From Desulfocapsaceae bacterium (GTDB lineage: Bacteria > Desulfobacterota > Desulfobulbia > Desulfobulbales > Desulfocapsaceae), in the NCBI GenBank assembly GCA_030653035.1, contig JAUSAB010000047.1:1-45959 (forward strand): a stretch of DNA of 45,959 nucleotides. The letters run 5' to 3'. Both the position numbers and the translations under genes were made by a program. Each line of letters starts with the position of its first letter. The stretch's first letter is position 1. A model generated the notes under the pieces. The model was not told the origin of the DNA. It made no database searches and saw nothing but the letters and a program-made list of their open reading frames with translations. Of the stretch, positions 1,759 through 45,959 are shown one piece after another.

Positions 1759-1875
1759 ATGGGTAAGGAACAAAACACCAAGAAAGAAACGAAGAAAGAA
1801 CCTGCCAAGACCATGAAGGAAAAAAAGGCTGCCAAGAAGAGTAAGAAGGAAGAAAAGAAGGGGCAGATGCCATAA
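1759..1875 (+). CDS. Small Lys-rich protein (38 aa)
   Basis: A short ORF preceded by an excellent ribosome binding site (AAAGGAGG, 7 nt before ATG). The product is about 40% lysine with several glutamates, starts MGKEQNTKKE and has no hydrophobic core, so it is likely disordered, very basic, and cytoplasmic or nucleic-acid/ribosome associated. No family is recognised. It lies 66 bp after der and ends 5 bp before the start of the DUF2132 gene, so the two are probably co-transcribed. The strong Shine-Dalgarno and clean stop support real translation. Function unknown. Confidence 0.6.
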   Translation: MGKEQNTKKETKKEPAKTMKEKKAAKKSKKEEKKGQMP

Positions 1876-1880
1876 ACAGT

Positions 1881-2123
1881 ATGAATGGTCAGCAACCGAA
1901 TGATCCTTTGCATGGTGTTACCCTGGAGATGATTCTTGTTCGTCTGCTTGAGAAGTATGGCTGGGAGAAAATGGGCAGGAAGATCAAAATAAAATGTTTT
2001 CTCAGTGAGCCAAGCATCAAGTCCAGTCTGGTTTTTTTGCGAAAAACCCCCTGGGCCAGGAAAAAAGTTGAGGATTGGTATATCAGAAATTTTGTTAAAG
2101 ACTGGAAGGAAGAGCGGGTGTGA
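1881..2123 (+). CDS. VF530 / DUF2132 family protein
   Basis: An 80-residue protein of the VF530 family (DUF2132). The signature is clear: NDPLHGVTLE at the N-terminus, then LLEKYGW, CFLSEPSIKSSL and FLRKTPWARKKVE. Family members are small single-domain helical proteins found widely in proteobacteria. Their role is unknown, although a nucleic-acid-binding role has been suggested. The gene starts 5 bp after the Lys-rich ORF, and the coupling suggests that the pair works together. Length is normal for the family. Confidence 0.85.
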   Translation: MNGQQPNDPLHGVTLEMILVRLLEKYGWEKMGRKIKIKCFLSEPSIKSSLVFLRKTPWARKKVEDWYIRNFVKDWKEERV

Positions 2124-2145
2124 AATTTTTCATTCCTGCTCTTCC
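2108..2145 (+). terminator. Hairpin overlapping the DUF2132 stop (possible terminator)
   Basis: An 8-bp perfect stem (GGAAGAGC with GCTCTTCC) encloses a further imperfect stem that includes the TGA stop. There is no good T-tract after it, so termination is only possible, not shown. Confidence 0.3.
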
Positions 2146-2476
2146 GCTGTTGTGTTTTGCCGCTTGCCAAGATATATACATGGGGTGTTTTCACAAAGGT
2201 CAAAAAAGAACCGTCCAAGCCAAATAACAGGATTATTCCAGCTTCAGTGACCTTTTCTTCATGAGAGTTATGCTCCTTTTAGCACAATCGTTTCAAAAAT
2301 TCCGATGCTGAACAATGGCATATAGTTGATGCCGGACCGCGCTTACAATAACCTCACCCCATCTGATAACAAGGTCATCTGTCGTTAAATTTGAAGATGT
2401 ACATGTTTCTTTTTTTCATCTTTCTGATACGTTTTCTGAGTAGTCATATATGTCGTGTATTGACAGGTTCTGAAAG
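2146..2476. other. Intergenic, nothing recognised
   Basis: A convergent gap between the DUF2132 gene and the reverse-strand aminotransferase. It contains AT-rich stretches but no ORF with a ribosome binding site and no clear bidirectional terminator that I can identify. Confidence 0.5.
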
Positions 2477-3661
2477 CTAAGCTCTGGCCTGGGCTATGGC
2501 CTTTTGAAAGGCCCCTGCTGATCGGCTGATCACGTCATCTGAGATACAGAAGGCGAGGCGGAAGTAGCCGGGAGCACCAAAGCCGCATCCGGGAACCGCC
2601 AGGATTTTGTGCTCCTGAAGAATGGCGCAGAAGGCCACATCGTTGGCAATGGGTGATTTGGGGAAGATGTAGAAGGCCCCTTTCGGCGGCATAAAATCAT
2701 ATCCGGCTTCGCGAAGGATTGTGCAGAATAGCTCCCGCCTGCGGGTATAGATGGAGTTGTCAACGCTTGCGTCCTGAAGTTTGGCCACGGCCCGCTGCAT
2801 GAGGGCTGGGGCGTTGACAAAACCGAGGATGCGGTTGGCAAGGGTTAAGGCATTCAGCAGGGCGGTTTTATCTTCTATCTCGGGATGGACAGCGAGAAAA
2901 CCTATGCGCTCGCCGGGCAGTGAGAGTTCCTTGGAGTAGGATGATAGAACAATGCTGTTTTTAGAGGCCAGGAAGGTGCTGCCTACTTCATGGTTGTCAA
3001 AGACAATCTTACGGTAGGGTTCATCGGCAATGAGGTAGATGGTTGTCCCGAGCCGACTGCCGGCTGTGTCCAGCAACTTACCGATGGCGTTCAGGGCATC
3101 CTGGGAATAAATCTGACCGGTGGGGTTGTTAGGCGAATTTATGAGCACAGCCTTGGTTTTGTTGGTGATGGCGGCCTCAATGGCGGTCAGATCCAGGTTG
3201 AATTCCTGATCAGTGCCCACAACCTTGCTGACTCCGCCGTGGTTGTCCACATAGAAATTATACTCAACAAAATAGGGGGCCAGCAGGATGACCTCATCGC
3301 CGGGGTTGAGCAGCGATTTCATGACGATATTGATGGCTCCGGCCGCCCCGCAGGTCATGAGCATGTCACCGGCTGTGACCGTGACCCTTTGCTCAGCTGA
3401 GATCCTGTCAGCCAGGATCTCACGAACCCACGGATAGCCGCCATTGGGCATATAGGCATGGACGCCGGGAGACTGATCAGCGGCCAGCTCCTTGAGCACT
3501 TTTGTAAAATCAGGCGGTGGCGGGACATCGGGATTGCCGAGGCTGAAATCGAAGACATTCTCGGCCCCGAACTGGGCCTTCATCTTGGCGCCTTCCTCAA
3601 ACATCTTGCGAATCCAGGAAGATGTTTCGGCAAAAGCACGCATCTTATCAGAAATAGACAT
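2477..3661 (-). CDS. Pyridoxal-phosphate aminotransferase, class I/II
   Basis: A cytoplasmic PLP-dependent aminotransferase of the aspartate aminotransferase fold, 394 residues. Visible landmarks are NSPNNPTG at 175-182, DEPYR at 213-217 (PLP-binding Asp and Tyr) and SYSKELSLPGERIG with the Schiff-base lysine at about 244. A C-terminal Arg in GYFRLAFC matches the substrate-carboxylate binding arginine. The amino-acid substrate cannot be read from sequence. AAGGAG lies before the ATG. It is the last gene of an apparent reverse operon with the DnaJ/TerB gene and ftsY, with 38-bp spacing. Confidence 0.92.
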   Translation of the reverse strand: MSISDKMRAFAETSSWIRKMFEEGAKMKAQFGAENVFDFSLGNPDVPPPPDFTKVLKELAADQSPGVHAYMPNGGYPWVREILADRISAEQRVTVTAGDMLMTCGAAGAINIVMKSLLNPGDEVILLAPYFVEYNFYVDNHGGVSKVVGTDQEFNLDLTAIEAAITNKTKAVLINSPNNPTGQIYSQDALNAIGKLLDTAGSRLGTTIYLIADEPYRKIVFDNHEVGSTFLASKNSIVLSSYSKELSLPGERIGFLAVHPEIEDKTALLNALTLANRILGFVNAPALMQRAVAKLQDASVDNSIYTRRRELFCTILREAGYDFMPPKGAFYIFPKSPIANDVAFCAILQEHKILAVPGCGFGAPGYFRLAFCISDDVISRSAGAFQKAIAQARA

Positions 3662-3699
3662 AACTCTCCTTTATCTTGTCTTGCAAAATGATCTTTCGT

Positions 3700-6060: not shown

Positions 6061-7035
6061 ATGTCGAGTTCGTGTGGAACAAGTAGTTCTTGTTCAAGCA
6101 AGTCTTGTGGCAGTCAGGAATCTCAGCAGGCCCGGATGGCGCAGCAGGATAATGCCATTACCCGCTCCCTGGGCAAAATTAAACATAAAATTCTGGTTAT
6201 GAGCGGTAAGGGCGGGGTGGGAAAATCCACCGTTTCCGTCAATCTGGCTTTAGGTTTGGCGAAAAGAGGCCATCAGGTAGGACTCATGGATGTGGATCTC
6301 CATGGTCCAGATGTCATTCGGATGTTGAATCTGAAGGGAACCCTGGAGCCACCCGCGACCCCGGACGCCCTGGTTCCGCCGTTGAAATACAATGACAATC
6401 TGAAGGTCGTCTCGCTTGAATACATGATGAGAGATCGGGACGAGGCCATTATCTGGCGCGGCCCTCTGAAGATTCAGGCCATCCGTCAGTTTGTCGCCGA
6501 TATGGATTGGGGCGAACTTGACTATCTGATCATTGATGCCCCTCCAGGCACCGGTGATGAGCCGCTGTCTGTGGCCCAGACCATCCCCAATGTCAAGGCC
6601 ATAGTGGTGACCACTCCCCAGCAGGTTGCCCTTGCCGATGTTCGCAAGTCCATCAATTTCTGCAAGACCGTGGATATGGAGATCACCGGGGTGGTGGAAA
6701 ACATGTCCGGCTTTGTCTGCCCGCACTGTAACCAGACCGTTGATATCTTCAAGACCGGCGGTGGTGAGGATCTGGCCCGCGAATTTGACCTGCCGTTCCT
6801 CGGCCGGGTCCCCATGGATCCAAAGGTGGTTATCGGCGGTGATGATGGGACGCCGTATCTTACTTCCGATGCGGTCAGCCCGGCCACTGAGGCCTTTGCC
6901 GCCGTGGTGACGGCTGTTGAAAACCGTCTGCCGCCACTGGCCGCAGCAAAGCCTTCGCTGAACATGGCGGCTGCTGCTGCCAGCAGTTGTGGGTGCGGCG
7001 GCGGTGGGTGTAATCCTGCCAAATGTGATTGCTGA
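6061..7035 (+). CDS. Mrp/NBP35-family Fe-S cluster carrier ATPase
   Basis: A cytoplasmic P-loop ATPase of the Mrp/ApbC/NBP35 group that carries or inserts iron-sulfur clusters, 324 residues. The deviant Walker A (GKGGVGKST, about 49-57), the DAPPGTGDE switch and the metal-binding CPHC pair in GFVCPHCNQ are present. Both ends are unusual: the N-terminus is Ser/Cys-rich (four Cys in the first 16 residues) and the C-terminus ends in a Gly/Cys-rich tail (CGCGGGGCNPAKCDC), giving extra potential metal ligands. AGGAGG precedes the ATG. A strong terminator follows, so it is monocistronic. Confidence 0.93.
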   Translation: MSSSCGTSSSCSSKSCGSQESQQARMAQQDNAITRSLGKIKHKILVMSGKGGVGKSTVSVNLALGLAKRGHQVGLMDVDLHGPDVIRMLNLKGTLEPPATPDALVPPLKYNDNLKVVSLEYMMRDRDEAIIWRGPLKIQAIRQFVADMDWGELDYLIIDAPPGTGDEPLSVAQTIPNVKAIVVTTPQQVALADVRKSINFCKTVDMEITGVVENMSGFVCPHCNQTVDIFKTGGGEDLAREFDLPFLGRVPMDPKVVIGGDDGTPYLTSDAVSPATEAFAAVVTAVENRLPPLAAAKPSLNMAAAAASSCGCGGGGCNPAKCDC

Positions 7036-7063
7036 GCGATTGCTGATTAACCGGTGAACAGTG

Positions 7064-7112
7064 AACAGGAAGAGTGAATCATTTGAATATTCTCTCTTCC
7101 TGTTTTTTTTTT
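7064..7112 (+). terminator. Rho-independent terminator
   Basis: An 11-bp perfect stem (AACAGGAAGAG with CTCTTCCTGTT) runs straight into a run of about ten T residues. It ends the Mrp-type gene, 28 bp after its stop codon. Confidence 0.92.
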
Positions 7113-7137
7113 GTAAATTCTTCTGATAAGTAGAGCT

Positions 7138-7767
7138 ATGTTTATCAAACAACTGACCGTTGGGCAGATGGGCGTCTGCTGTTATATCGTCGGATGTACC
7201 AAGACCGGCAAGTGTGCGGTGATTGATCCCGGCGGTGATGAAGAGCAGATTCTGGCCGAGGTCAAACGGGCAAAACTTACCATTGAGTATATCCTTGCCA
7301 CCCATGGACATGCCGATCATGTCTGCGGCAACAGGCGGATCAAGGAGGTCAGCGGCGCCCCCATTGTTATGCATGAGGCGGATGCGGTCTTCTTTGCCCG
7401 GCCTGAGGTGATAAAATATTTTTCCATGCTCGGGCTTGAGGCCTCGCCCCCTGTTGATATCCAGGTCCTGGACGGCGATGTGATTACTATTGGTGAGGTG
7501 AAACTGAAGGTGATTCATACCCCGGGTCATACCCCGGGCGGCATCTGTTTTTACAATGCCCCGGATCTTTTTACCGGTGATACCCTTTTTGTCGGCGGCC
7601 TTGGTCGCTCCGATTTCCCCGGTGGATCCGAGCGCGAGCTGCTGGCTTCGATTGCCACTAAATTGCTGACCCTGCCCCCGGAGACTGTGGTCTGGCCGGG
7701 ACATGGTTATGGTGGCAACCGTTCCACTATTGGTGAAGAAAAAAGAACGAATCCGTATATCCGTTAA
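7138..7767 (+). CDS. MBL-fold metallo-hydrolase (glyoxalase II-like)
   Basis: A 209-residue cytoplasmic metallo-beta-lactamase-fold hydrolase with a complete binuclear metal site: THGHADHV (HxHxDH), the later His in HTPGHTPGG, Asp in FTGDTLF and His in VWPGHGYGG. It has the length of compact glyoxalase-II-like thioesterases without a substrate-recognition C-domain. The substrate is unknown. It lies 74 bp upstream of selB on the same strand and just after the terminator of the preceding gene, so it may head a short unit with selB. Confidence 0.9.
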   Translation: MFIKQLTVGQMGVCCYIVGCTKTGKCAVIDPGGDEEQILAEVKRAKLTIEYILATHGHADHVCGNRRIKEVSGAPIVMHEADAVFFARPEVIKYFSMLGLEASPPVDIQVLDGDVITIGEVKLKVIHTPGHTPGGICFYNAPDLFTGDTLFVGGLGRSDFPGGSERELLASIATKLLTLPPETVVWPGHGYGGNRSTIGEEKRTNPYIR

Positions 7768-7841
7768 GACCTGGGAAGGGAGGGATTGCAACCTCTGATC
7801 TCCCCGGTCACTGTCTTTTATCCTCTGCCTGCTGATATCCC

Positions 7842-9776
7842 ATGCGTGAAATTGTCCTCGGCACCGCCGGCCATGTTGATCATGGCAAGACCAGCCTGAT
7901 CAGGGCCCTGACCGGTATTGAAACCGACCGCCTCAAGGAAGAAAAAAAACGGGGCATCACCATTGAGCTCGGCTTTGCCTATCTTGATCTTCCATGTGGC
8001 CATCGTCTGGGGATTGTCGATGTCCCCGGTCATGAAAAGTTCGTCAAGAATATGGTGGCCGGGGTCATGGGCATGGATCTGGTCGCCTTTATCGTCGCCG
8101 CCGATGAGGGGATCATGCCCCAGACCAGGGAACATTTCGAGATCTGCCGTCTGCTCGGAGTCAAGGAAGGGATCATTGTCATCACCAAGAAAGATATGGT
8201 GGAACCGGAGTGGCTGGATCTGGTGGAAGAGGAGGTGCGCGATTTCTGCGTCGGCAGCTTTCTTGAAGATGCCCCTCTGGTGCGGGTCTCCTCGATCACC
8301 GGCGAGGGTATCCCTGAGCTTACGGAAGAACTCGACCGTTTTGTCAAAAGACAGGTACTGCAGGAAGTACATGGGCCGTTTCGGCTGCCGGTAGATCGGG
8401 TCTTTGCCATGAAAGGATTTGGGGCGGTGATTACCGGGACCTCCATTTCCGGCCGGGTTGCCATTGGTGAGGAGTTGCGCTTTTACCCTTCGGAGCTGGT
8501 CGCCAAGGTGCGTGGCCTGCAGGTCCATTCCCAGTCGGTGGAGGAGGTCGAAGCCGGACACCGCACTGCCATCAACCTGCAGGGAGTTGATACTGCGTTG
8601 GTTGAACGAGGGATGGTGGCGGCCACTCCCGGCTGTCTGCAAGCGGGCTATATGCTTGATTGCGAATTTCTGTATCTCGCCAGCAATGAAAAACCACTCA
8701 AACACCGGACCAGGGTGCGCGTCCATCTGGGGACGGCCGAGGTCATGGGCCGGATCTCCTTGCTGATGCAGGATGAATTGCGGCCGGGTGATGATGCGGC
8801 GGTCCAGCTTCTTTTTGAGGAGCCTGTTGCCGTCTGGCCAGGGGACAGGTATGTGGTGCGCAGCTATTCTCCGGCCACAACCATCGGCGGCGGCAAGGTT
8901 CTGGGGAATCAGCCGGCACGGAAGCGAAAACGGGCAACCGATCAGGACCGGAGTCTGAATGCCCATGTCTTTCAGGTCTTGCAGCAGGGTACCGTTGAAG
9001 AGCAGATCCTCCTTTTCCTTGAGGAAAGCCAGACAGCCGGGTTGACGGCCGATGATCTTTCTATTCGGCTCGGGATCTTTGGTAAGCAGCTGAAGAAGGT
9101 GATGAACGCGCCGCTTTCCACCCGCAAGATCGTGGTGGTCGATTCCGCGGCCCAGCGTTATCTAGCCAAAACGGTGAGCGACAGGGTGGAGGAGACCCTG
9201 CTTGCCAATCTTGCCGCCTTTCATCGTGACAATCCTTTGCAGAATGGTCTGTCAAAAGAAGAGCTGCGCTCAGGGCTTGGCAAGAGGGTGGAACAGAAGG
9301 TCTTCCAGTTCTGTCTGGGGGAGCTGCTGAAAAAAGAACTGGTGGTTCAGGAAGAATCGGAGGTGCGGCTCACCACCCACAGGGTGGCCCTGCAGGCGGA
9401 CGAGAAGGCCTTGCAGCGGGACCTGGAGGAGTGGTACCGGCAGAAAGGGCTGGCCACGGCCACTATCCGCGAGAGCGGGGAGCATTTTGCCGACATGCCG
9501 GAGGCCATGGTCAAGGAGGTGCTGGCTCTACTGCTGCGCCAGGGCAAGCTGGTCAAGATCAGCGAAAGCCTTTATTATCATGTGGACACTATTAATACCC
9601 TGGCCCAGGATCTCACTGTCTTCATCACACGGGAAGGAGAAATCGATGCCCCGCGCTTCAAGGAGCTGACCGGCCTGACCCGCAAGTTTTCCATTCCCCT
9701 GCTTGAGTATTTTGACAAGATCAAACTGACCATCCGGGTCGGCGATACCCGGATCTTGCGTAAAAAAATTACTTGA
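7842..9776 (+). CDS. selB: Selenocysteine-specific elongation factor SelB
   Basis: A translation factor that binds GTP, selenocysteyl-tRNA and the SECIS hairpin to decode UGA as selenocysteine. It has 644 residues, normal for bacterial SelB. The N-terminal EF-Tu-like GTPase is clear ([27 protein letters not shown]), beta-barrel domains II/III follow, and the C-terminal ~250 residues form the winged-helix repeats that bind mRNA, ending in the [13 protein letters not shown] recognition-helix region. No selA, selD or tRNA-Sec is seen nearby. A degenerate copy of its last ~40 codons occurs near 28.4 kb. Confidence 0.96.
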
Positions 9777-9866
9777 GAAAAATGCGCCCTGAATAAGTTA
9801 AAATTGCAATAAGGTACAAGGTCTACTCCCTGAATAACTTCAAGCAACCTAAGGAGGGATTACTCG

Positions 9867-10607
9867 ATGAAAATCAAATCAGTTCTTATCATGATGCTGT
9901 TGTCATTGCTCGGTACGCTGGCTGTGGCGGCGCAGGAGATGGTGAAAAAGGATGTGATCAGGACATCGGCCGGAGATCTGGAGCTTACATTTATCGGGCA
10001 CGGATCACTGATGATGACCTTCGGCGGAAAAGTCATCCATATCGATCCCTATAGTCGGGTGGCCGATTACTCGAAGCTGCCCAAGGCCGACCTGATTTTT
10101 CTGACCCATGATCATCCCGACCATCTCGACCAGGTGGCCCTGCAGAGTGTTCGGACGACTGATTCGGTGGTGGTGCTTCCCCCAGTCTGCGCTGACAGGG
10201 TGGAGGGAGGAATTATCATGAAGAATGGCGAGACCAGGACGGTGCGGGGGATCAAGGTGAAGGCCATTCCTGCCTATAATCTCGTGCATAAGCGGGACAA
10301 CGGCCAACCCTTTCATCCACAAGGTGTTGGCAACGGCTATGTGCTGACCTTTGGCGACAAGCGCATTTACGTGGCGGGAGATACCGAAAATATACCGGAA
10401 ATGAAGGCCCTGCAAGACATCAACTGTGCCTTCCTGCCGATGAATCTGCCCTATACGATGACGCCGGAGATGGTGGCCGATGCGGCAAAGGCGTTCAAAC
10501 CAAAAATTCTCTACCCCTACCATTACGGCGATACGGATCCGATGCGACTCACGGAACTGCTGAAAGACACGCCCGAGATTGAGGTGCGTATCCGTCCGCT
10601 GCAGTGA
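9867..10607 (+). CDS. Secreted UlaG-like metal-dependent hydrolase (MBL fold)
   Basis: A 246-residue protein with a classic signal peptide (hydrophobic h-region ending LAVAAQE), so a periplasmic member of the UlaG/YtnP-like metallo-hydrolase group. Metal motifs are visible: THDHPDHLDQ, VAGDTEN and YPYHYGDTDP. The substrate is unknown. AAGGAGG precedes the ATG. It lies 90 bp after selB. A decayed, 5'-truncated copy of the gene and of its downstream flank lies about 9.5 kb to the right (19611-20077), so this locus has been duplicated and the copy lost. Confidence 0.88.
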   Translation: MKIKSVLIMMLLSLLGTLAVAAQEMVKKDVIRTSAGDLELTFIGHGSLMMTFGGKVIHIDPYSRVADYSKLPKADLIFLTHDHPDHLDQVALQSVRTTDSVVVLPPVCADRVEGGIIMKNGETRTVRGIKVKAIPAYNLVHKRDNGQPFHPQGVGNGYVLTFGDKRIYVAGDTENIPEMKALQDINCAFLPMNLPYTMTPEMVADAAKAFKPKILYPYHYGDTDPMRLTELLKDTPEIEVRIRPLQ

Positions 10608-10700
10608 ATCCCACCCTGCCGCGTAAAGTCCATTAATGGGATCTGCTTATTTTCAGGCGGTAGGAGTTGGCGGTATGGATAATTTGGAAAGATATTGACT
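10143..10700 (+). repeat. Duplicated segment, intact copy (3' part of UlaG-like gene plus flank)
   Basis: This stretch, covering the last two thirds of the UlaG-like gene and ~90 bp of downstream flank (including the GGAGTTGGC..TATGGATAA string), reappears in mutated form at about 19611-20182. The similarity stops just before the coding part of the Lit-like gene, placing one border of the accessory region at about 10.7 kb. Confidence 0.85.
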
Positions 10701-10808
10701 CTGTAAATGATCTGCCACAGGTCAATAAAAACAATGCCATCTTTCTGTATAATGCTCAAGTCGGAGTATTTTGCAGAAACTGGTTACCAACTTGTTAACT
10801 GTAAAAAA

Positions 10809-11687
10809 ATGAAATCACCCATATTAAGCCAACTTAATCATATAGCCAGCGCACCATATCGTATCGCTCCTGAAAGACAAATTGAACTACGATCAATAGA
10901 TTTAGAAGAAGATTTAAGCATAGACTTTATTGAAAAAAATGGTTTTCAGTTTAGTGTGAATCCACGAACCAAAATCATCACAACTACTGTCCCAACTCTG
11001 GAATATTTCTGGGCTTGTTCATATTTTCACTTGGTTATCACCTACGACTATCAGCAATGCAAGGCAGAAGGCAATGAGTTTTTTGATACCAGCAAATATG
11101 AGAACACTGTCACCGCGATTGATCTCTTAAAATGGGCTAAAAATAATGTTTCCTCATCTAAAAGAAGAGAGGAATGGCCTAGTAATTTTCCACGGCCAAG
11201 TGAAAAAATAAAAGAAAGTTCAATGGTATATTCAGCAAATGAGCTTTTTCTCTGTGGAGTTGCTTGGATTATCCACCATGAAATTGCTCATGTAACGAAA
11301 AAGCATCCTAATATAACAACATCATCTTCAAAATTTGAAGAAAGAGAAGCAGACATTCAAGCAACAGAATGGATTCTTCAAAAATGTAAAGATCCACAAC
11401 AATTGTATAAAAGAACAATAGGCATTATTTCAATCATTCTTGCCCTGCAACTGCTCGAAGAACCTTTAAAGAGTAACATCTTTGAAACACACCCTAAAGC
11501 ATTTGAAAGAATCGACTACTGTATATGCAATTCTCATTTAGACGAAGACCATGAATTATTTTTCTTCGCATCAATTATTTTACAAATTCAATTAGCATTC
11601 AAAGGCGTTAATGTGCATCATGAAGGTAAAACATTTAAAGAAAGATTTTCTAATTATCTAATTGAATACAATAAATATTTTAGTTAA
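10809..11687 (+). CDS. Lit-like (peptidase U49) phage-exclusion metalloprotease candidate
   Basis: A 292-residue AT-rich gene. It carries a zinc-protease motif HHEIAH at about residues 157-161 followed by a downstream EREADIQATEW, as in Lit/peptidase U49 proteins, whose E. coli member is about 297 residues and has HExxH near residue 160. Lit cleaves EF-Tu during phage infection, causing abortive infection. That role is inferred here from motif spacing and length, not proven. The start at 10809 is chosen because the N-terminus (KSPILSQLNH) then resembles Lit in length. An upstream ATG at 10707 is possible. It is the first gene of the cassette-like region, with an attC-like site overlapping its stop. 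Confidence 0.65.
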   Translation: MKSPILSQLNHIASAPYRIAPERQIELRSIDLEEDLSIDFIEKNGFQFSVNPRTKIITTTVPTLEYFWACSYFHLVITYDYQQCKAEGNEFFDTSKYENTVTAIDLLKWAKNNVSSSKRREEWPSNFPRPSEKIKESSMVYSANELFLCGVAWIIHHEIAHVTKKHPNITTSSSKFEEREADIQATEWILQKCKDPQQLYKRTIGIISIILALQLLEEPLKSNIFETHPKAFERIDYCICNSHLDEDHELFFFASIILQIQLAFKGVNVHHEGKTFKERFSNYLIEYNKYFS

Positions 11688-11745
11688 CCACCGCCTCCAC
11701 ACGGACCCCGTAAACAGCGCGGGTCCGGTGAGGCGGAACGTTATA
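11683..11745 (+). other. attC-like recombination site (A)
   Basis: It starts at the stop codon of the Lit-like gene. TAAC at 11685 pairs with GTTA at 11740, CCGCCTC pairs with GAGGCGG, and GGACCC pairs with GGGTCC inside, with unpaired bases between the boxes. This order (TAAC, spacer, CGCC-type box, stem, mirrored box, CGTTA) matches integron attC architecture. The next gene starts 14 bp later. Confidence 0.72.
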
Positions 11746-11758
11746 AGGTAAACTTCGA

Positions 11759-12424
11759 ATGAAAGAAGATTTTGAACAACGAATATCAGAGCTTGTTCTT
11801 GAAGGCAAAACACTAGTTGATACTTTACGAAAAAGTAGATCAGGCTTTGAGTACTATGTTCCAAATGCACGAACTGTAGAGTACCAAAAGTGGCTTGGCT
11901 CAACCGTCAATTTATTGAAACTCATTGACCAACCATATGGAATATTTGTGACAGAAAGTACAAGATTGTTTAATGAAAATACAACTTCTAGCATCATGTC
12001 TCATGTTGTTCAAAAAATGTATGGAATTTTGACTTCTGCCCAAGATGAATGGCAAAGAGGATTTCTCAGAAAGGTCGAGTTTATTGTAATTGCAGACGCT
12101 TATGATGATTTTCTTGACCATGCAAGTATTTACCATAAAGGGAACAAAAAAATAGAATCAGCCGTTTTAGCAAGTACAGTACTTGAGGACACAATAAAGA
12201 AAATTGCTCAAAAACATAATGTTGATTCTAAAGGGAAATCACTTGAACCATTAATTGACGAATTAGTTAAAGAAGGGATTATTACTCAAGTAAAAGGAAA
12301 GCGAATAAAGGGGTTCGCAGGCGTACGAAATCATGCTCTTCATGCCGAGTGGGATGAATTTGATATTAAAGATGTTGGTCAGTTGATTTCTGGAGTTCGT
12401 GAATTAATCGAAAATTTTCTATAA
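11759..12424 (+). CDS. DUF4145-like protein, probable defence or accessory cassette
   Basis: A 221-residue soluble protein with strongly AT-rich codon use. The C-terminal ~90 residues (ASTVLEDTIKKIAQ through GVRNHALHAEWDEF) resemble DUF4145, a domain seen alone and fused to restriction and other defence proteins. The N-terminal half is helical and not recognised. Its start lies 14 bp after attC-like site A, typical of integron cassettes, and TAAGGTAAAC may serve as a weak ribosome binding site. The molecular role is unknown. Confidence 0.7.
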   Translation: MKEDFEQRISELVLEGKTLVDTLRKSRSGFEYYVPNARTVEYQKWLGSTVNLLKLIDQPYGIFVTESTRLFNENTTSSIMSHVVQKMYGILTSAQDEWQRGFLRKVEFIVIADAYDDFLDHASIYHKGNKKIESAVLASTVLEDTIKKIAQKHNVDSKGKSLEPLIDELVKEGIITQVKGKRIKGFAGVRNHALHAEWDEFDIKDVGQLISGVRELIENFL

Positions 12425-12435
12425 ATTAAGAACTT

Positions 12436-12550
12436 ATAACAAACTGGGTGGACATGAGGACGCCCTTAACTTGTAAACTTGGCAGGTTATATATCAGAAA
12501 TCCCAACCATAACATTCAGCGGAAAAGCCGCAGATGTTTATGTTCGGCTT
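12436..12550 (+). other. Degenerate attC-like site(s) (B)
   Basis: ATAAC at 12436 can pair with GTTAT at 12486, and a second imperfect hairpin (CATAACAT against ATGTTTATG with an inner GCGG/CCGC) follows at about 12509-12545. The inner boxes fit attC poorly, so this is the weakest site of the set, kept for its position between two cassette-like genes. Confidence 0.3.
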
Positions 12551-12607
12551 TCGTGACATTCTTCATGCTGGTCAGACTGATGCTCAACAATTCATACAGG
12601 AAAACTT

Positions 12608-13096
12608 ATGAACATTGATGAAAATTGGGACATGATTAAAGACACTTTGCAGGCGGCAATGAAAAGTTCTCACCACTTGTCTTTTGCTACTGTGACTGAA
12701 GATGGTTCCCCACATGTCACACCAATTGGGTCATTAATTCTCAGAGACGATTGTACAGGCTATTATTTTGAGGAATACACAAAACAAATGCCTGTGAATT
12801 TAAAAAATAACCAGCAAATATCTATCCTTGCGGTTAATAGTGGTTTTTGGTTTTGGATAAAATCAATTTATTCAGGAAGATTCTCTTCTCATCCTGGGAT
12901 TCGTCTTCACGGTAAAGTAGGTGAACGCCGCCCAGCAACAGAAGGTGAAATTGCCGCTTGGCAAAATCGTGTTAAGGGCGTCAAAAATACCAAAGGTTAT
13001 AAACTTATATGGGAAAATCTCAAACATGTCCGCGATATTCAATTTGATTCATTTGAGCCTATTACAGCAGGAAAAATGACAAAATATCTTGTTTAA
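12608..13096 (+). CDS. Pyridoxamine 5'-phosphate oxidase-like (FMN-binding split barrel) protein
   Basis: A 162-residue protein of the PNPOx-like FMN-binding split-barrel superfamily. SHHLSFATVTEDGSPHVTPIGS is the typical first strand pair (motif ATVTEDGSPHVTP) and HGKVGERRP lies in the dimer-interface region. Members bind FMN, F420 or haem, and the real cofactor and substrate cannot be told. CAGGAAAAC before the ATG is a usable ribosome binding site. A stand-alone cassette-like gene, AT-rich compared with the core genes to the left. Confidence 0.8.
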   Translation: MNIDENWDMIKDTLQAAMKSSHHLSFATVTEDGSPHVTPIGSLILRDDCTGYYFEEYTKQMPVNLKNNQQISILAVNSGFWFWIKSIYSGRFSSHPGIRLHGKVGERRPATEGEIAAWQNRVKGVKNTKGYKLIWENLKHVRDIQFDSFEPITAGKMTKYLV

Positions 13097-13174
13097 ATAA
13101 ATCCAATTATTTACATGATTTACAAGCTTGGGGGCATGGACGTTCTTCAGATTATAATTTTCTTTATTTTTACC

Positions 13175-13214
13175 AACCAGTCGTTCCAGCGGGTAAACCG
13201 CTGAACTCAATGTT
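13175..13214 (+). other. attC-like hairpin (C)
   Basis: AAC at 13175 and GTT at 13212 flank GTTCCAGCGG-GTAAA-CCGCTGAAC, a 9-bp stem with a single bulged C, the type of extrahelical base seen in attC sites. A perfect 11-bp hairpin (TTCCCGGCGAC, loop TGC) follows at 13213-13237. Confidence 0.45.
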
Positions 13215-39000: not shown

Positions 39001-40122
39001 GTGAAAAAATCATTCTTCTTGTTTGCTGCGTTGTTTTCTGTCACGGTGTGCGGTGTGGCCAATGCCGGGAACGAGACGCTTCCGGCCATCTATCATATCC
39101 TCTTTCTTGCACCCAGGACCCTGGCCGGGCCGAGTGTTTCCGGTACCACAGATACGACCACCACACTATCGGCGACGATCAACAAAAATGGAACTGGTCA
39201 CTCTCTGGTGCGTCTGCTTGCCGAGGCCGAGCCGACGGTGGCCGAGGTGCTGGCCGGGACATCTTTTGCCATGATTGCCAATATCCAGGCCACGCAGCCC
39301 ATTACCGGGCTGACCGTTTTTACTGCCTACAAACTCTATTTTGTGGCTAAAAGTTCATCAAACAAGGTGCAATCGACAGTGCAGAATATTGCCTTTAAGA
39401 CCAGCAACGATGGATTCACCCCTGCCCTCAACGATACCGGCATCACTTGGGGTGGCAGTTATCCCAGTGGGAATAATACCGGTTGCACCGGCGAGGAGAT
39501 CGGTGCCCAGGACTGCTCGCATGGCCGCGACTTTACCCATAACGACGATTCGGACGGCCATGCCGGTTTCAGCTTTACCAAGCTGGCCGGCAACGGAACG
39601 CCGCTGGCAAATCAGGCCGTTGATTATGCCACCACCCCCTGGGCCTGCGTCCAGGATAATGTCACCGGCCTTGTTTGGGAGGTGAAGACCGCAGATGGCG
39701 GCCTCCATGATCAGAATGACGCTTATTACTGGTATAACACCAATCCCGCCACCAACGGCGGGGCGGATGGCTATGCCGATCCCGGCGCCACCTGTGAGGG
39801 CTATGTCAGCGGTGATACCGCCACTTATTGCAACACCCAGGCCTATGTGGATCGGGTCAATGACGCCGGCTGGTGCGGGAAAAGCGACTGGCGTATGCCG
39901 ACCCGTACGGAACTTTTGGGTATTGTTTCTTTTGATCGCGTGACCCCGGCCATTGATACGGCGTATTTTCCTAATACCCCAGCTTATTCGGTTGTCTGGT
40001 CTGGGTCTCCCTATGCCAACGGTTCGGGCTACGCGTGGTATGTCTATTTCAGTGTTGGCAACTCATACAGCAATTATCGCGGCATCGATTTTCAGGTGCG
40101 GTTAGTGCGCGGCGGACAGTGA
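39001..40122 (+). CDS. Secreted DUF1566 (lectin-like) protein, DGR target 1
   Basis: A 373-residue exported protein starting at GTG with GGAGG upstream. It has a signal peptide (ending GVANAG), a fibronectin-III-like domain (about 38-130) and a C-terminal DUF1566 domain (from about 195; ATTPWACVQDNVTGLVWEV, KSDWRMPTRTELLGIV), a C-type-lectin-like fold. The last 44 codons form a variable repeat (39991-40122) of the kind written by diversity-generating retroelements. The variable residues would form the ligand surface. An avd-like fragment follows. Ligand unknown. Confidence 0.85.
   Translation: MKKSFFLFAALFSVTVCGVANAGNETLPAIYHILFLAPRTLAGPSVSGTTDTTTTLSATINKNGTGHSLVRLLAEAEPTVAEVLAGTSFAMIANIQATQPITGLTVFTAYKLYFVAKSSSNKVQSTVQNIAFKTSNDGFTPALNDTGITWGGSYPSGNNTGCTGEEIGAQDCSHGRDFTHNDDSDGHAGFSFTKLAGNGTPLANQAVDYATTPWACVQDNVTGLVWEVKTADGGLHDQNDAYYWYNTNPATNGGADGYADPGATCEGYVSGDTATYCNTQAYVDRVNDAGWCGKSDWRMPTRTELLGIVSFDRVTPAIDTAYFPNTPAYSVVWSGSPYANGSGYAWYVYFSVGNSYSNYRGIDFQVRLVRGGQ
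39991..40122 (+). other. DGR variable repeat VR1
   Basis: 44 codons starting GTTGTCTGGTCTGGGTCTCC and ending GTGCGGTTAGTGCG then GGCGGACAGTGA. Compared with VR2, 18 codons differ, always in base 1 and/or 2 and never in base 3, which is C or T in both. All others match except TCA/TCG and CGC/CGT. This predicts AAC or AAT at each variable codon in the template. Confidence 0.88.
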
Positions 40123-40202
40123 CTTTTGTGTTTTTTTTATTTCTGGTTCCCGTCTGAGCCGCATGGGAACGATGCAAATCAGGAAAATGAGTTGATACGG
40201 TA

Positions 40203-40361
40203 ATGGAGCATAAACAGCGTTTACCCATCTGGCGGGATGCCAATCGCTTATTGTTGGAGATAGAACAGGCCGTGCGCGGGTTTCCCCGGTATCATAAGTA
40301 TGCAGTGGGAACGGACATGCGGCGGCAGGCTATGATTATTTGCCGCCTTTTGGTACGGGCC
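40203..40361 (+). pseudogene. avd: Truncated avd-like (DGR accessory, four-helix-bundle) gene
   Basis: The first ~53 residues look like the N-terminal half of DGR Avd proteins (four-helix bundle): LPIWRDANRLLLEIEQAVRG, FPRYHKYAVGTDMRRQAM and IICRLLVRA. The reading frame then runs into a REP unit at 40369 and stops at 40427. Typical Avd is roughly 110-130 residues, so more than half is missing. Avd binds the DGR reverse transcriptase and is required for mutagenic retrohoming, so this copy is unlikely to work. Position between the two targets fits a DGR locus. Confidence 0.75.
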
Positions 40362-40368
40362 CAATCCT

Positions 40369-40504
40369 GGTTCCCATGCGCCGCATGGGAACCCACCCGT
40401 GCCTGCGTCGCAGGCCTGAGGGAATAGAGGATTGACCGAGGCATGAGATAGAAACTGGATGCGGCGCATCCAGACTGCATTCCCATGCGGCGCATGGGAA
40501 CGAG
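40369..40504. repeat. REP/REPIN-like unit 2
   Basis: Perfect palindrome GGTTCCCATGCG, C, CGCATGGGAACC at 40369-40393, then CGTGCCTGCGTCGCAGG, ~45 bp later CTGGATGCGGCGCATCCAG, and a closing CCCATGCGGCGCATGGG. This unit cuts the avd-like gene. Confidence 0.92.
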
Positions 40505-40543
40505 AAAGAGCAAAGACTTCGGAATTAGTTTTGTCGGTGTCCT

Positions 40544-40590
40544 GGTTCCCATGCGCCGCATGGGAACCTATCCGCGCCTGCGTCGCAGGC
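40544..40590. repeat. REP/REPIN-like unit 3 (left half only)
   Basis: Carries the 25-bp palindrome (40544-40568) and CGCGCCTGCGTCGCAGGC, then ends. It lies 34 bp before the likely start of the RAYT gene. Confidence 0.88.
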
Positions 40591-40623
40591 ATACAACGTA
40601 ACACTGAAAACAGGAGCAACATC

Positions 40624-41163
40624 ATAGGCCGTAGCCGTTACACCATAACCGATACCAGCGCGCCTCATTTCCTGACCTTCACCGTGCTCAACTGGCTTCC
40701 CGTCTTTACCCGGCCCGGCACAGTCCGGATCATCCTTGATGCCCTGGCCTGGCGGCAGCAGAACAAGGGTGTTAAAGTCTATGGGTATGTGATCCTGGAA
40801 AATCACATGCACTGCATTTTGGAGGCCGACGATTTGTCTCGGCAACTGCACGATTTCAAGGCGTTCACCGCCACTGCCATTTTGCACTCTTTGCAAGAAA
40901 GCAAGGCGGAGCGGATATTGGAGCTGCTGGCATTTTTCAAGAAGGCCCACAAGACAGACTCCCACTATCAGTTCTGGGAAGAGGGGAGCCACCCGCAACT
41001 CTTGCAGAATGAAGAGATGTTGCGGCAAAAACTGGACTATATTCATCTCAATCCGGTCAAGCGAGGGTATGTGGAAGAAGCGGTTCATTGGCGATATTCC
41101 AGCGCCCGGAATTATGAAGGGCAGGAAGGGTTGATTCCGGTCTATACCGATTGGTTGAGTTGA
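40624..41163 (+). CDS. REP-associated tyrosine transposase (RAYT), second copy
   Basis: A Y1_Tnp/RAYT protein of about 179 residues from GRSRYTITD on. HUH-like motif is in VILENHMHCILE and the catalytic Tyr in LDYIHLNPVKRGY. It is flanked on both sides by REP-like palindromes, its likely substrates. It lacks the DnaA-like C-domain of the first RAYT. The start is unusual: relatives begin M-GRSRY, but here the codon at 40624 is ATA, with CAGGAG well placed before it. The next in-frame ATG upstream (40459) lies inside REP unit 2. So either ATA is used, or the start is mutated. Confidence 0.85.
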   Translation: MGRSRYTITDTSAPHFLTFTVLNWLPVFTRPGTVRIILDALAWRQQNKGVKVYGYVILENHMHCILEADDLSRQLHDFKAFTATAILHSLQESKAERILELLAFFKKAHKTDSHYQFWEEGSHPQLLQNEEMLRQKLDYIHLNPVKRGYVEEAVHWRYSSARNYEGQEGLIPVYTDWLS

Positions 41164-41170
41164 ATGGGAT

Positions 41171-41304
41171 GGGATGCGACGCATGGGAACCCCTCCGCGC
41201 CTGCGTCGCAGGCGCGAGAGCATCATGAAATACAGAGCGGCATGAGTCAAAAGCAGGATGCGGCGCATCCAGGATGCATTCCCATGCGGCGCATGGGAAC
41301 GAGA
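41171..41304. repeat. REP/REPIN-like unit 4
   Basis: Opens GGGATGCGACGCATGGGAACC (left arm partly lost), then CGCGCCTGCGTCGCAGGCGCG, a 19-bp palindrome, and later GGATGCGGCGCATCC and CCCATGCGGCGCATGGG. Starts 8 bp after the RAYT stop. Confidence 0.88.
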
Positions 41305-41462
41305 GCTACGAGAGCTTCGGGGCATTCTTCCCAGGCCATAAATCCTCGTTTAGTTGTCAGTAAAGTTATCGTTCGCCAACAGGGATACCTGAAAGGCGGG
41401 CTTCGTCGCCGGTGTATCGAGTCAATAACCCTTCCCCCTTTCTCTCAAACAGGAGTCTTATT

Positions 41463-41987
41463 ATGCGGACAAGTCTCACCCTGATTTTTATTCTTTCCTC
41501 TCTGGCCATCGTTCCTGGAGTGAGTGGTCAGACCTGCAACACCACCTCTATCACGGCCACTATCCCGGACAGTCAATTGACCGACAATGGCGATGGTACC
41601 ATTACTGATAGCAAAACCGGTCTGATGTGGAAGAAATGTATGGAAGGTGTTACAGGAAATTTGTGTGACACCGGGGTTGCCACCACCTTTACCTGGCAGA
41701 CTGCCTTGCAGCAACCTGGGGTGGTCAATGGTGGCGGCTTTGCCACTCACCAGGACTGGCGTCTGCCTAACATCAAGGAACTGACTTCCATTGTCGAGGA
41801 GCAGTGTTATGACCCAAGTATCAATCTGAACCGGTTTCCCAATACGCCAAGTTCGGTTGTCTGGTCTGGGTCTCCCTTTGCCTACTATTCGGACAGCGCG
41901 TGGGTTGTCAATTTCTATTATGGCAGCTCGTTCAACGGTGATCGCAGCTACGGTGATCAGGTGCGGTTAGTGCGTGGCGGACAGTGA
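41463..41987 (+). CDS. Secreted DUF1566 protein, DGR target 2
   Basis: A 174-residue exported protein. The start at 41463 follows CAGGAGTC and gives a signal peptide (LIFILSSLAIVPGVSG). The rest is a DUF1566 domain (TDNGDGTITDSKTGLMWKKC, HQDWRLPNIKELTSIVEEQC). It lacks the fibronectin-like domain of target 1. The last 44 codons (41856-41987) are a variable repeat that matches VR1. Sequence upstream of the VR is much more different between the two proteins, which shows that the repeat was copied from a common source and not inherited by simple gene duplication. Confidence 0.87.
   Translation: MRTSLTLIFILSSLAIVPGVSGQTCNTTSITATIPDSQLTDNGDGTITDSKTGLMWKKCMEGVTGNLCDTGVATTFTWQTALQQPGVVNGGGFATHQDWRLPNIKELTSIVEEQCYDPSINLNRFPNTPSSVVWSGSPFAYYSDSAWVVNFYYGSSFNGDRSYGDQVRLVRGGQ
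41856..41987 (+). other. DGR variable repeat VR2
   Basis: Same 44-codon frame as VR1. It codes for WSGSPFAYYSDSAWVVNFYY at its start. Codons 8, 10, 11, 13, 14, 17, 19, 21, 22, 24, 26-29 and 31-34 differ from VR1, in each case with the third base kept. The conserved tail (CAGGTGCGGTTAGTGCG) is the likely initiation-of-mutagenic-homology region. Confidence 0.88.
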
Positions 41988-42077
41988 CTTTTGGGTTTTT
42001 CTGGTTTGCTGTGGCGGCTGCCTGGCAGCGAGTTGCGAGCTGCCTGGTTTCCTTTTTCCCTCTGCTGGTTCCTTCCT

Positions 42078-42199: not shown

Positions 42200-42472
42200 A
42201 TGAATGAAATTCTCTGGCATAATCGCGCACGCAAGCAGATAAAATTGATCCCAACAAAAGAGCGGGAGACAATCCATGATCGTATTGATCTTCTTGCCGG
42301 TTTTCCCGATGTTGCCGGGGTTGATGTCAAACCGCTGACCGGCCATCCTGACCGGCCATCAGTACGGGTATCGCTTGCGTGTCGGCAGGTACAGGATTTT
42401 GTTTGATTACAAAATGGCGTCAAGGTTATCAGCATTCAGGAGGTAAAAAAAAGAGATGAACGCACATATTGA
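42200..42472 (+). pseudogene. RelE/ParE-family toxin gene with two frameshifts
   Basis: The start reads MNEILWHNRARKQIKLIPTK..IHDRIDLLAGFP, typical of RelE/ParE-type toxins. A 13-bp tandem duplication (CTGACCGGCCATC at 42335-42347 and 42348-42360) shifts the frame. After it, YGYRLRVGRYRILFDYK is readable in the correct frame. A second shift in the A-run at 42411 (four A where five are expected) must be undone to read the end, which would overlap the antitoxin start. The toxin is thus inactive as sequenced. Confidence 0.85.
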
Positions 42473-42791
42473 ACCCCAGATTATCAGTTTCGGCGGCAAA
42501 CCTGCTTTTGCCGTCATTCCGTGGGATGAATATCAGATGTTGATCAGCAACAGGCAGGAGCTTGATATCTGGTTTCCCAATGATGTGGTAAAGGCTAATA
42601 GTAGAGGAGTAAGCCTGATTACAGCCTGGCGTGAGCATTTCGAAATGACTCAGGCTGAGCTTGCAGCGAAGTGTGAGATGAAACAGGCATCCATTGCCAG
42701 ATTAGAAAAGGGCCATGCCGGGGCGCGGAGATCAACCCTTGCCAGAATCGCAGCGGCCATGGGGATTATGGTCGAGCAGTTAATCGAGTAG
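42456..42791 (+). CDS. XRE-family antitoxin
   Basis: A 111-residue protein. The N-terminal part (GGKPAFAVIPWDEYQMLI) resembles a Phd/RelB-like neutralising segment, and the C-terminal part is an XRE helix-turn-helix (TQAELAAKCEMKQASIARLEKG). Such antitoxins repress their own operon and bind the toxin. The ATG is placed after AGGAGG at 42438-42443, about 12 nt upstream, and overlaps the end of the broken toxin gene. As the toxin is inactive, this is a solitary antitoxin. Confidence 0.87.
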   Translation: MNAHIEPQIISFGGKPAFAVIPWDEYQMLISNRQELDIWFPNDVVKANSRGVSLITAWREHFEMTQAELAAKCEMKQASIARLEKGHAGARRSTLARIAAAMGIMVEQLIE

Positions 42792-42810
42792 TTCAGGTGC
42801 GGTTTTTTCT

Positions 42811-42835
42811 GGTTCCCATACGGTGCATGGGAACC
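42811..42835. repeat. Degenerate REP palindrome
   Basis: GGTTCCCATACGGTGCATGG then GAACC: the same element as the other REP palindromes, with two changes in the centre. It follows CAGGTGCGGTT at 42794, an 11-bp string also present in the DGR repeats. Confidence 0.8.
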
Positions 42836-43214: not shown

Positions 43215-43299
43215 TTAATGATAATTGCAAATCTCGACCCGGTCCGCATTGTCATCTGTCCAAACAAAGCACACTCGCCATTGATCATTGATCCTGAAA
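43215..43299 (-). pseudogene. higB: Remnant of the HigB toxin 3' end
   Basis: The last 26 or so codons of a HigB toxin remain: FRINDQWRVCFVW, then DRVEICNYH and a TAA 11 bp before higA. The upstream part is replaced by the 193-bp direct repeat starting at 43293. Confidence 0.85.
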
Positions 43300-43485
43300 A
43301 CGGCAGTTAGACACGGTTATTTTGCAATAACTTATTGTATTGCTAAGCTTTTCCCTCACCCCGACCCTCTCCTAAAAGGAGAGGGAGTTTTTGGCCCTTC
43401 TCCCTGAGGGAGAAGGGGTGGGATGAGGGGGAACTATATGTGTATTATGAGGCAACCGCCATTTTTAGGTTAAAAAGAGGGGAAC
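43293..43485. repeat. 193-bp direct repeat, copy 1
   Basis: Starts CCTGAAAACGGCAGTTAGAC. The middle contains CCCTCACCCCGACCCTCTCC against GGAGAAGGGGTGGGATGAGGG, an internal long inverted repeat, and it ends GTTAAAAAGAGGGGAAC. It matches 45767-45959 at all but two positions. It truncates higB. Confidence 0.93.
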
Positions 43486-45364: not shown

Positions 45365-45766
45365 TTTTTCCTCCCGGTTATTTGTCCTACTGTTTGGTGC
45401 TAATACGGCTTTTCAGTCGCTGCCTTTGTCGGCTGTATTGCGAAAAATTGCTCTGTGATGCTATACTGCATTTTGTGTACCAAAATGAGTGGAAGTCGTA
45501 ACACCTTGATTGTATTATGTTAATATTCCTATATGGGGGTGAATCTGTTTACGCAACTGGTGCAAAAAAATAGTTTGATACAATGAAACAAAGAGATGAT
45601 TTGGTCTGCCAGGCAAGATGGGAAGTATCTGTATTCAAATTTATGTGTGTTATTTTAATGAGATGTGCGTTGTGGGTTGGGTTGTTGTGGCCGAGTAACC
45701 GCAAAAGCAAGTTTTCTTGCAGTAAGGTTGTCCGCGTAAGTTTTTTTGCTTGTGCAAAAACTTAAA
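45365..45766. other. Upstream region of the cytochrome gene
   Basis: AT-rich with no supported gene (a short forward ORF at 45583 lacks recognisable content). It should contain the cytochrome promoter on the reverse strand. No clear boxes can be fixed. Confidence 0.5.
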
Positions 45767-45959
45767 CCTGAAAACGGCAGTTAGACACGGTTGTTTTGCA
45801 ATAACTTATTGTATTGCTAAGCTTTTCCCTCACCCCGACCCTCTCCCAAAAGGAGAGGGAGTTTTTGGCCCTTCTCCCTGAGGGAGAAGGGGTGGGATGA
45901 GGGGGAACTATATGTGTATTATGAGGCAACCGCCATTTTTAGGTTAAAAAGAGGGGAAC
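45767..45959. repeat. 193-bp direct repeat, copy 2 (may continue past the window)
   Basis: Near-identical to 43293-43485 with the same left border (CCTGAAAACGG). The differences are G for A at about 45793 and C for T in the CTCTCC box. The window ends where copy 1 ended, so the true length may be greater. Confidence 0.92.

Follow-up and report, generated by a model that had tools for sequence, protein, structure and literature searches.

The stretch of Desulfocapsaceae DNA analysed here (45,959 nucleotides, hereafter the window) encodes two target proteins with an Lcl_C domain, formerly DUF1566: VP1, of 373 aa (39001–40122, + strand), in which the domain is C-terminal, and VP2, of 174 aa (41463–41987, + strand). 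Against a Pfam cut-off of 34.9 bits, the Lcl_C profile (PF07603) scores 101.1 bits on VP1, over residues 216–370, and 117.9 bits on VP2, and both proteins start with a signal-like N-terminal stretch as judged by eye from the translation. A profile search matched VP2 weakly to PDB entry 8q4e (E 0.0011), the C-terminal domain of Legionella Lcl, and a Foldseek comparison with the same structure gave E 0.017 and a probability of 1.00, the VP2 model itself being weak (pLDDT 69.7). In the AF2 model the mean pLDDT is 39 for residues 141–150 and 44 for residues 151–160, both within the variable repeat. The Pfam assignment and the weak 8q4e matches together give the two proteins the lectin fold expected of targets of diversity-generating retroelements (DGRs); by analogy with DGR targets in general, their variable face may be ligand-binding. 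The genome holds 16 Lcl_C matches, four of which, arranged as two pairs (one in the window, one on contig C55), bear the repeat described below.

The two genes end in a pair of variable repeats, VR1 (39988–40135, + strand, repeat family D3) and VR2 (41853–42000, + strand), each including the stop codon and ~13 bases beyond. Their similarity starts sharply at ~39988 and extends ~13 bases 3′ of the stop, with 12 of these 13 bases identical. From 39988 and 41853 to the stop codons, 18 of 45 codons (stop counted) differ at base 1 and/or base 2, eight of them at both, and base 3 is the same in both genes (C or T) at all 18. The first-pass annotation had described the ends of the 39001 and 41463 genes as nearly identical except at 18 codons altered at base 1 or 2 with base 3 kept, and had noted two further third-base changes; our recount confirms both statements and places the third-base-only changes at 40063 (TCA/TCG) and 40108 (CGC/CGT). 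By codon position the differences number 12, 14 and 2, so that bases 1 and 2 differ at 26 of 90 sites and base 3 at 2 of 45 (Fisher p = 6e-4; the binomial probability of so few third-base changes at the rate seen for bases 1 and 2 is 4e-5). The VRs lie at the 3′ end of the targets and their variable codons fit template A positions, these positions being deduced from AAY-compatible codons, as a template of this type was not found. Base 1 or 2 of the 18 variable codons is never C in the window (0 of 72 positions; 40012–40092 and 41877–41957) and is C at 2 of 252 positions across seven VRs from the window and the related genome G010; C is rarer in these codons than among the template-A changes of the relatives G014, G099 and G089.

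Between the targets lie remnants of a DGR cassette, which had been overlooked in the first-pass annotation. The first is a truncated gene for the accessory protein Avd (40203–40362, + strand), cut to the first ~53 of ~107 codons and recognised by pairwise matches to the longer Avd on contig C171 of G010 (81% identity, 53 aa, E 3.5e-25) and to the Avd encoded by the intact G014 DGR (40% over 55 aa, E 9e-9); the window therefore has no intact Avd, and the bAvd profile PF22296 matched nothing in the organism's own assembly, this scrap included (all six candidates scored). It is followed by a REP/RAYT element (40364–41304, + strand; repeat families D1, D2 and D4) made of REP-like palindromic units and an ORF for a REP-associated tyrosine transposase (40459–41163; NCBIfam NF047646, 96.1 bits against a cut-off of 80). 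The second remnant is the 3′ end of a DGR reverse transcriptase (RT) gene, its last ~27 codons (41335–41415, + strand), which match the RT tail of G010 C171 with 81% identity (E 2.2e-7; 88% over 25 aa). By itself this remnant scored no Pfam family; with the G116 RT as an intermediate, it was aligned to the MutS_I-like domain of the G014 RT, at the end of that domain. The order in the window, VP1, avd scrap, REP/RAYT element, RT scrap and VP2, is that of the intact cassette of G116, an order-level relative (long VP, avd, template, RT, short VP), in pieces. VR-bearing targets, broken or missing cis machinery and homology to an intact cassette are all found at this one locus.

Intact cassettes were identified in relatives with a template query built from the VRs by placing AAY at the variable codons. 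A-rich template copies directly adjoin RTs in G014, which belongs to the same genus, and in G089, G099, G132 and G116, and these RTs carry the motif GLPIGNLTSQ; SQ in motif 4 is given as a mark of DGR RTs in the accessible text of PMC3521204. In seven template–VR pairs from G014, G099, G116 and G089, template-A positions hold 143 of 150 differences, a count that includes a fixed difference near the 3′ end distinguishing templates from VRs and that sets aside an eighth pair (G089, 56 differences) as out of register. The G014 template and the window VRs are of different VR families. The G014 DGR island (L111, ~6880–13211) is flanked by matches to window positions 1875–2189 and 2477–3670, and the window lacks this island at the equivalent place (~2190–2476). 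In four intact DGRs (G014, L111 7533–9323; G089, G099 and G132, L112, L113 and L114) a C-terminal MutS_I domain scoring above the Pfam cut-off is fused to the RT. Five more genomes of the order (G172, G177, G211, G214 and G245; loci L182–L188) gave VR-like matches among the best one or two candidates per genome; three of these loci, read in frame, end as VRs. A DGR-like RT match was also obtained in G177 (E 2.3e-47), and the one-contig G214 has weak RT matches only.

The first-pass annotation had predicted a template repeat near a DGR-type RT elsewhere in the genome, and neither was found in the assembly (3.41 Mb, 118 contigs, completeness rated 99.99%). Searches with the VR and with the inferred template, in which all 9 and all 16 candidates were scored, revealed no template repeat: only the four VR copies fell below E 0.001, and none has the GGAAAG or GGATAG end of templates. 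No RT with SQ in motif 4 was found in this assembly, the window holding just the ~27-codon RT tail, and the RT of G116 as query had no match there. The two RTs that the assembly does hold are a group II intron-like enzyme (GTPQG), terminal on contig C20, and a DRT/UG9-like enzyme on C52, the latter (353–2011) identified by PADLOC as RT_UG9_small with E 5.8e-144. Among 17 genomes of the genus, the only long RT frames that the G116 RT detected lie at two places in G014, with a fragment in G010; this query detected no DGR RT in G004, G011 or G077. In wider searches, the inferred template found no template of the window type in sets of 144 and 290 genomes (best six and two candidates per genome at most), and the RT tail found no intact window-type RT in overlapping sets of 290 and 257 genomes. 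Neither viral contigs, queried with the VR-end pattern and VP2, nor phages, queried with VP2, contained an intact template or RT of this type, and the VP2 relatives in plasmids (65 records) are all below 60% identity. As a DGR RT detector we rejected phrog_1423, which also matched group II intron RTs; motif 4 told the two apart and was used to sort RT loci L032–L061, 10 of 30 of which have no motif match and stay unclassified.

VP pairs of the same type were found at three loci of G010, in G011 and in G004, and, within the family, in G077; pairs of related proteins also occur in named contigs such as L096, L097 and L098, fetched stretches without an Avd or RT match. RT tails lie 5′ of VP2 at the three G010 loci and in G011 and G077; the avd gene of G010 is long on C171 and truncated on C9, and that of G011 is truncated as well. 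Relic pairs of another VR family are present in G013 and on contig C435 of G099, again with the second VP preceded by an RT tail; G099 has an intact cassette besides. In three of the five intact cassettes the VR pairs, of 43–45 codons each, show 0 (G099), 1 (G014) and 1 (G116) third-base differences; G089 and G132 were left out of this comparison. The ten pairs without an RT core span 1 to 25 such differences (G010 C9 1, C171 1 and C203 4; L096 4; G004 10; G011 11; G077 11; C55 14; L098 23; L097 25), values that may be inflated for the older pairs, which were aligned with gaps at the protein level. With 2 differences in 45 codons the window pair ranks with the least drifted, near the intact cassettes, and its last rewriting is therefore recent in evolutionary terms.

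The G010 loci suggest how such pairs may be kept clean. In a gapless comparison confined to 135-base VRs (7 of 30 inferred-template matches), each of the ten pairings of the five G010 VRs, from three loci, shows 0–4 third-base differences in 45 codons, while outside the VRs 35–43% of third bases differ between the genes in two of the three locus comparisons. Near-identical VRs in diverged genes point, at the level of sequence, to one template that would have written three RT-less loci in trans; since the G010 assembly is 55% complete, its RT may be unseen. In G010 C171 (L117), a 23S_rRNA_IVP-like ORF with repeats on either side sits between avd and the RT fragment, where the template and RT core belong. 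In G056 (C19, 46076–46106; L124 near 8076), a transposase-like frame extends into a VR, over its final 31 bases.

Taken together, these data make it very probable that the window genes are DGR targets and that the local cassette is a relic that has lost its middle. Judged from its sequence, the locus is a former DGR and not a demonstrably working one. The adenine-directed DGR mutagenesis proposed in the first-pass annotation agrees with the codon pattern and with the AAC/AAT templates beside DGR RTs in relatives; its direct source, a template and RT of the organism itself, did not turn up, and the origin of the window VRs is therefore inferred from relatives. Under this model, a single template repeat would have been copied into mutagenised cDNAs that overwrote the 3′ ends of VP1 and VP2, with template A's in AAC/AAT codons changed to other bases and the remaining bases, third positions included, copied faithfully. 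The ancestral cassette would have read VP1, avd, template, RT and VP2; its middle would then have been lost, leaving the 5′ avd scrap and the 3′ RT scrap with the REP/RAYT element between them. The last rewriting may have preceded loss of the local RT, or may have come later from an RT and template elsewhere that are missing from the assembly or have since been lost. The template itself, this order of events and the binding of variable ligands by VP1 and VP2 are parts of the model that we infer.

A first alternative, which we consider possible but doubtful, is that trans rewriting of the window pair continues, driven by an RT and a template of its own genome that are missing from the assembly, whether in an unassembled repeat, a plasmid or an unbinned contig. 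The low third-base count close to that of intact cassettes is what such rewriting would produce, the three G010 loci without an RT core look written from one source, and trans rewriting is reported for degenerate loci of Thiohalocapsa in the accessible part of PMC10907252. The avd scrap, moreover, ends at codon 53 both in the window and in the distant G011, as if the loss predated the last rewriting; the genes of the two differ by a dS of ~1 or more (NG86, 128–179 codons, near saturation). Against this, an assembly rated 99.99% complete yielded neither a template nor a DGR RT, and no Avd match, and the C55 pair of the same genome has drifted, with 14 third-base differences in 43 codons, and so is not being rewritten. 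Nor does further junction sequence significantly bind the window to G011: the avd ends coincide, but a common deletion junction is suggestive at most, since 223 of 2000 shuffles reach the score of the flanks.

It is likewise conceivable, but on balance unlikely, that the REP/RAYT element was itself the agent that broke up the window cassette. It lies just between the avd scrap and the RT scrap, REP-like sequence also lies 3′ of the cut avd in G010 C9, and the VR tail fused to a transposase-like frame in G056 would fit a transposon in such a role; however, G011 has the same avd end and an RT tail without a REP/RAYT element, and G010 C171 has the 23S_rRNA_IVP-like ORF there instead. An origin without any retroelement, in which ordinary duplication or gene conversion made the pair and positive selection then acted on ligand-binding residues, is very improbable: selection, too, changes the first two codon bases more than the third, and Lcl_C domains are common in this genome, but the third base is kept in 18 of 18 changed codons, eight of these changed at both first bases, DGR scraps lie between the genes, and intact relatives show the same pattern with a template beside the RT.

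Returning to the relic DGR, the window locus is of a known kind: DUF1566 targets, degenerate loci and targets without RT or template repeat (TR) are all in print, as far as the accessible parts of PMC6642488, PMC10907252 and PMC4891356 go. It comes with an unusually readable decay series. Like the DGR of Bordetella phage BPP-1 (mtd, avd, TR, brt; NC_005357), the window has a VR at the target 3′ end and an avd-like gene, and the RTs of its intact relatives share SQ in motif 4 with Brt; unlike BPP-1, it is not known to be phage-borne, two Lcl_C targets flank the cassette, and the template, the RT core and half of avd are gone. The degenerate loci of Thiohalocapsa PB-PSB1, as described in the available text of PMC10907252, resemble it in their missing or broken machinery and the involvement of transposons; PB-PSB1 keeps complete loci, whereas none was found in the present assembly. 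Isolates of Treponema denticola with targets but no TR or RT offer a further parallel in targets that outlast loss of the core, although the accessory gene there is HRDC and the window has avd and RT scraps between its targets (PMC4891356, in its accessible part). Among the papers listed in a thin literature check for DGRs together with Desulfobulb-, Desulfocapsa or Electrothrix, none carried the DGR term.

The accessory protein MSL was reportedly described in a 2018 survey. Intact relatives resemble systems with this accessory in having MutS_I (PF01624; PMC10053308, accessible portion); unlike MSL as characterised there, the domain in G014, G089, G099 and G132 is fused to the RT C-terminus. 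A literature search, mostly short of full text, found no description of such a DGR RT–MutS_I fusion.

A broader hypothesis, which we advance only tentatively, is that the RT-stripped VP pairs of these bacteria are dispersed target cassettes, rewritten in trans by one template and RT at several sites of the chromosome. By losing the local RT repeatedly, a genome would retain its targets yet hold the mutator to a single copy, and the silencing of each pair could be dated from its third-base drift. The pairs, ranging from intact to long-silent, could serve as a clock for DGR death, since the third bases of a template-copied frame should drift only once rewriting stops. The series makes testable both the trans rewriting of RT-less target pairs and the remaining role of frozen lectin-like proteins, and it cautions that VR-like codon patterns alone are no proof of a working DGR.

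Two further observations concern the DNA 3′ of VP2. Window positions 42200–42824, including an HTH protein gene (42456–42791), have translated matches of 94–97% to L123 (5587–6122), where the matching genes adjoin the G013 relic VP pair, which is of another VR family and has a rearranged gene order. A 198-base direct repeat, 98% identical, occupies 43288–43485 and 45762–45959, the second copy forming the end of the contig.
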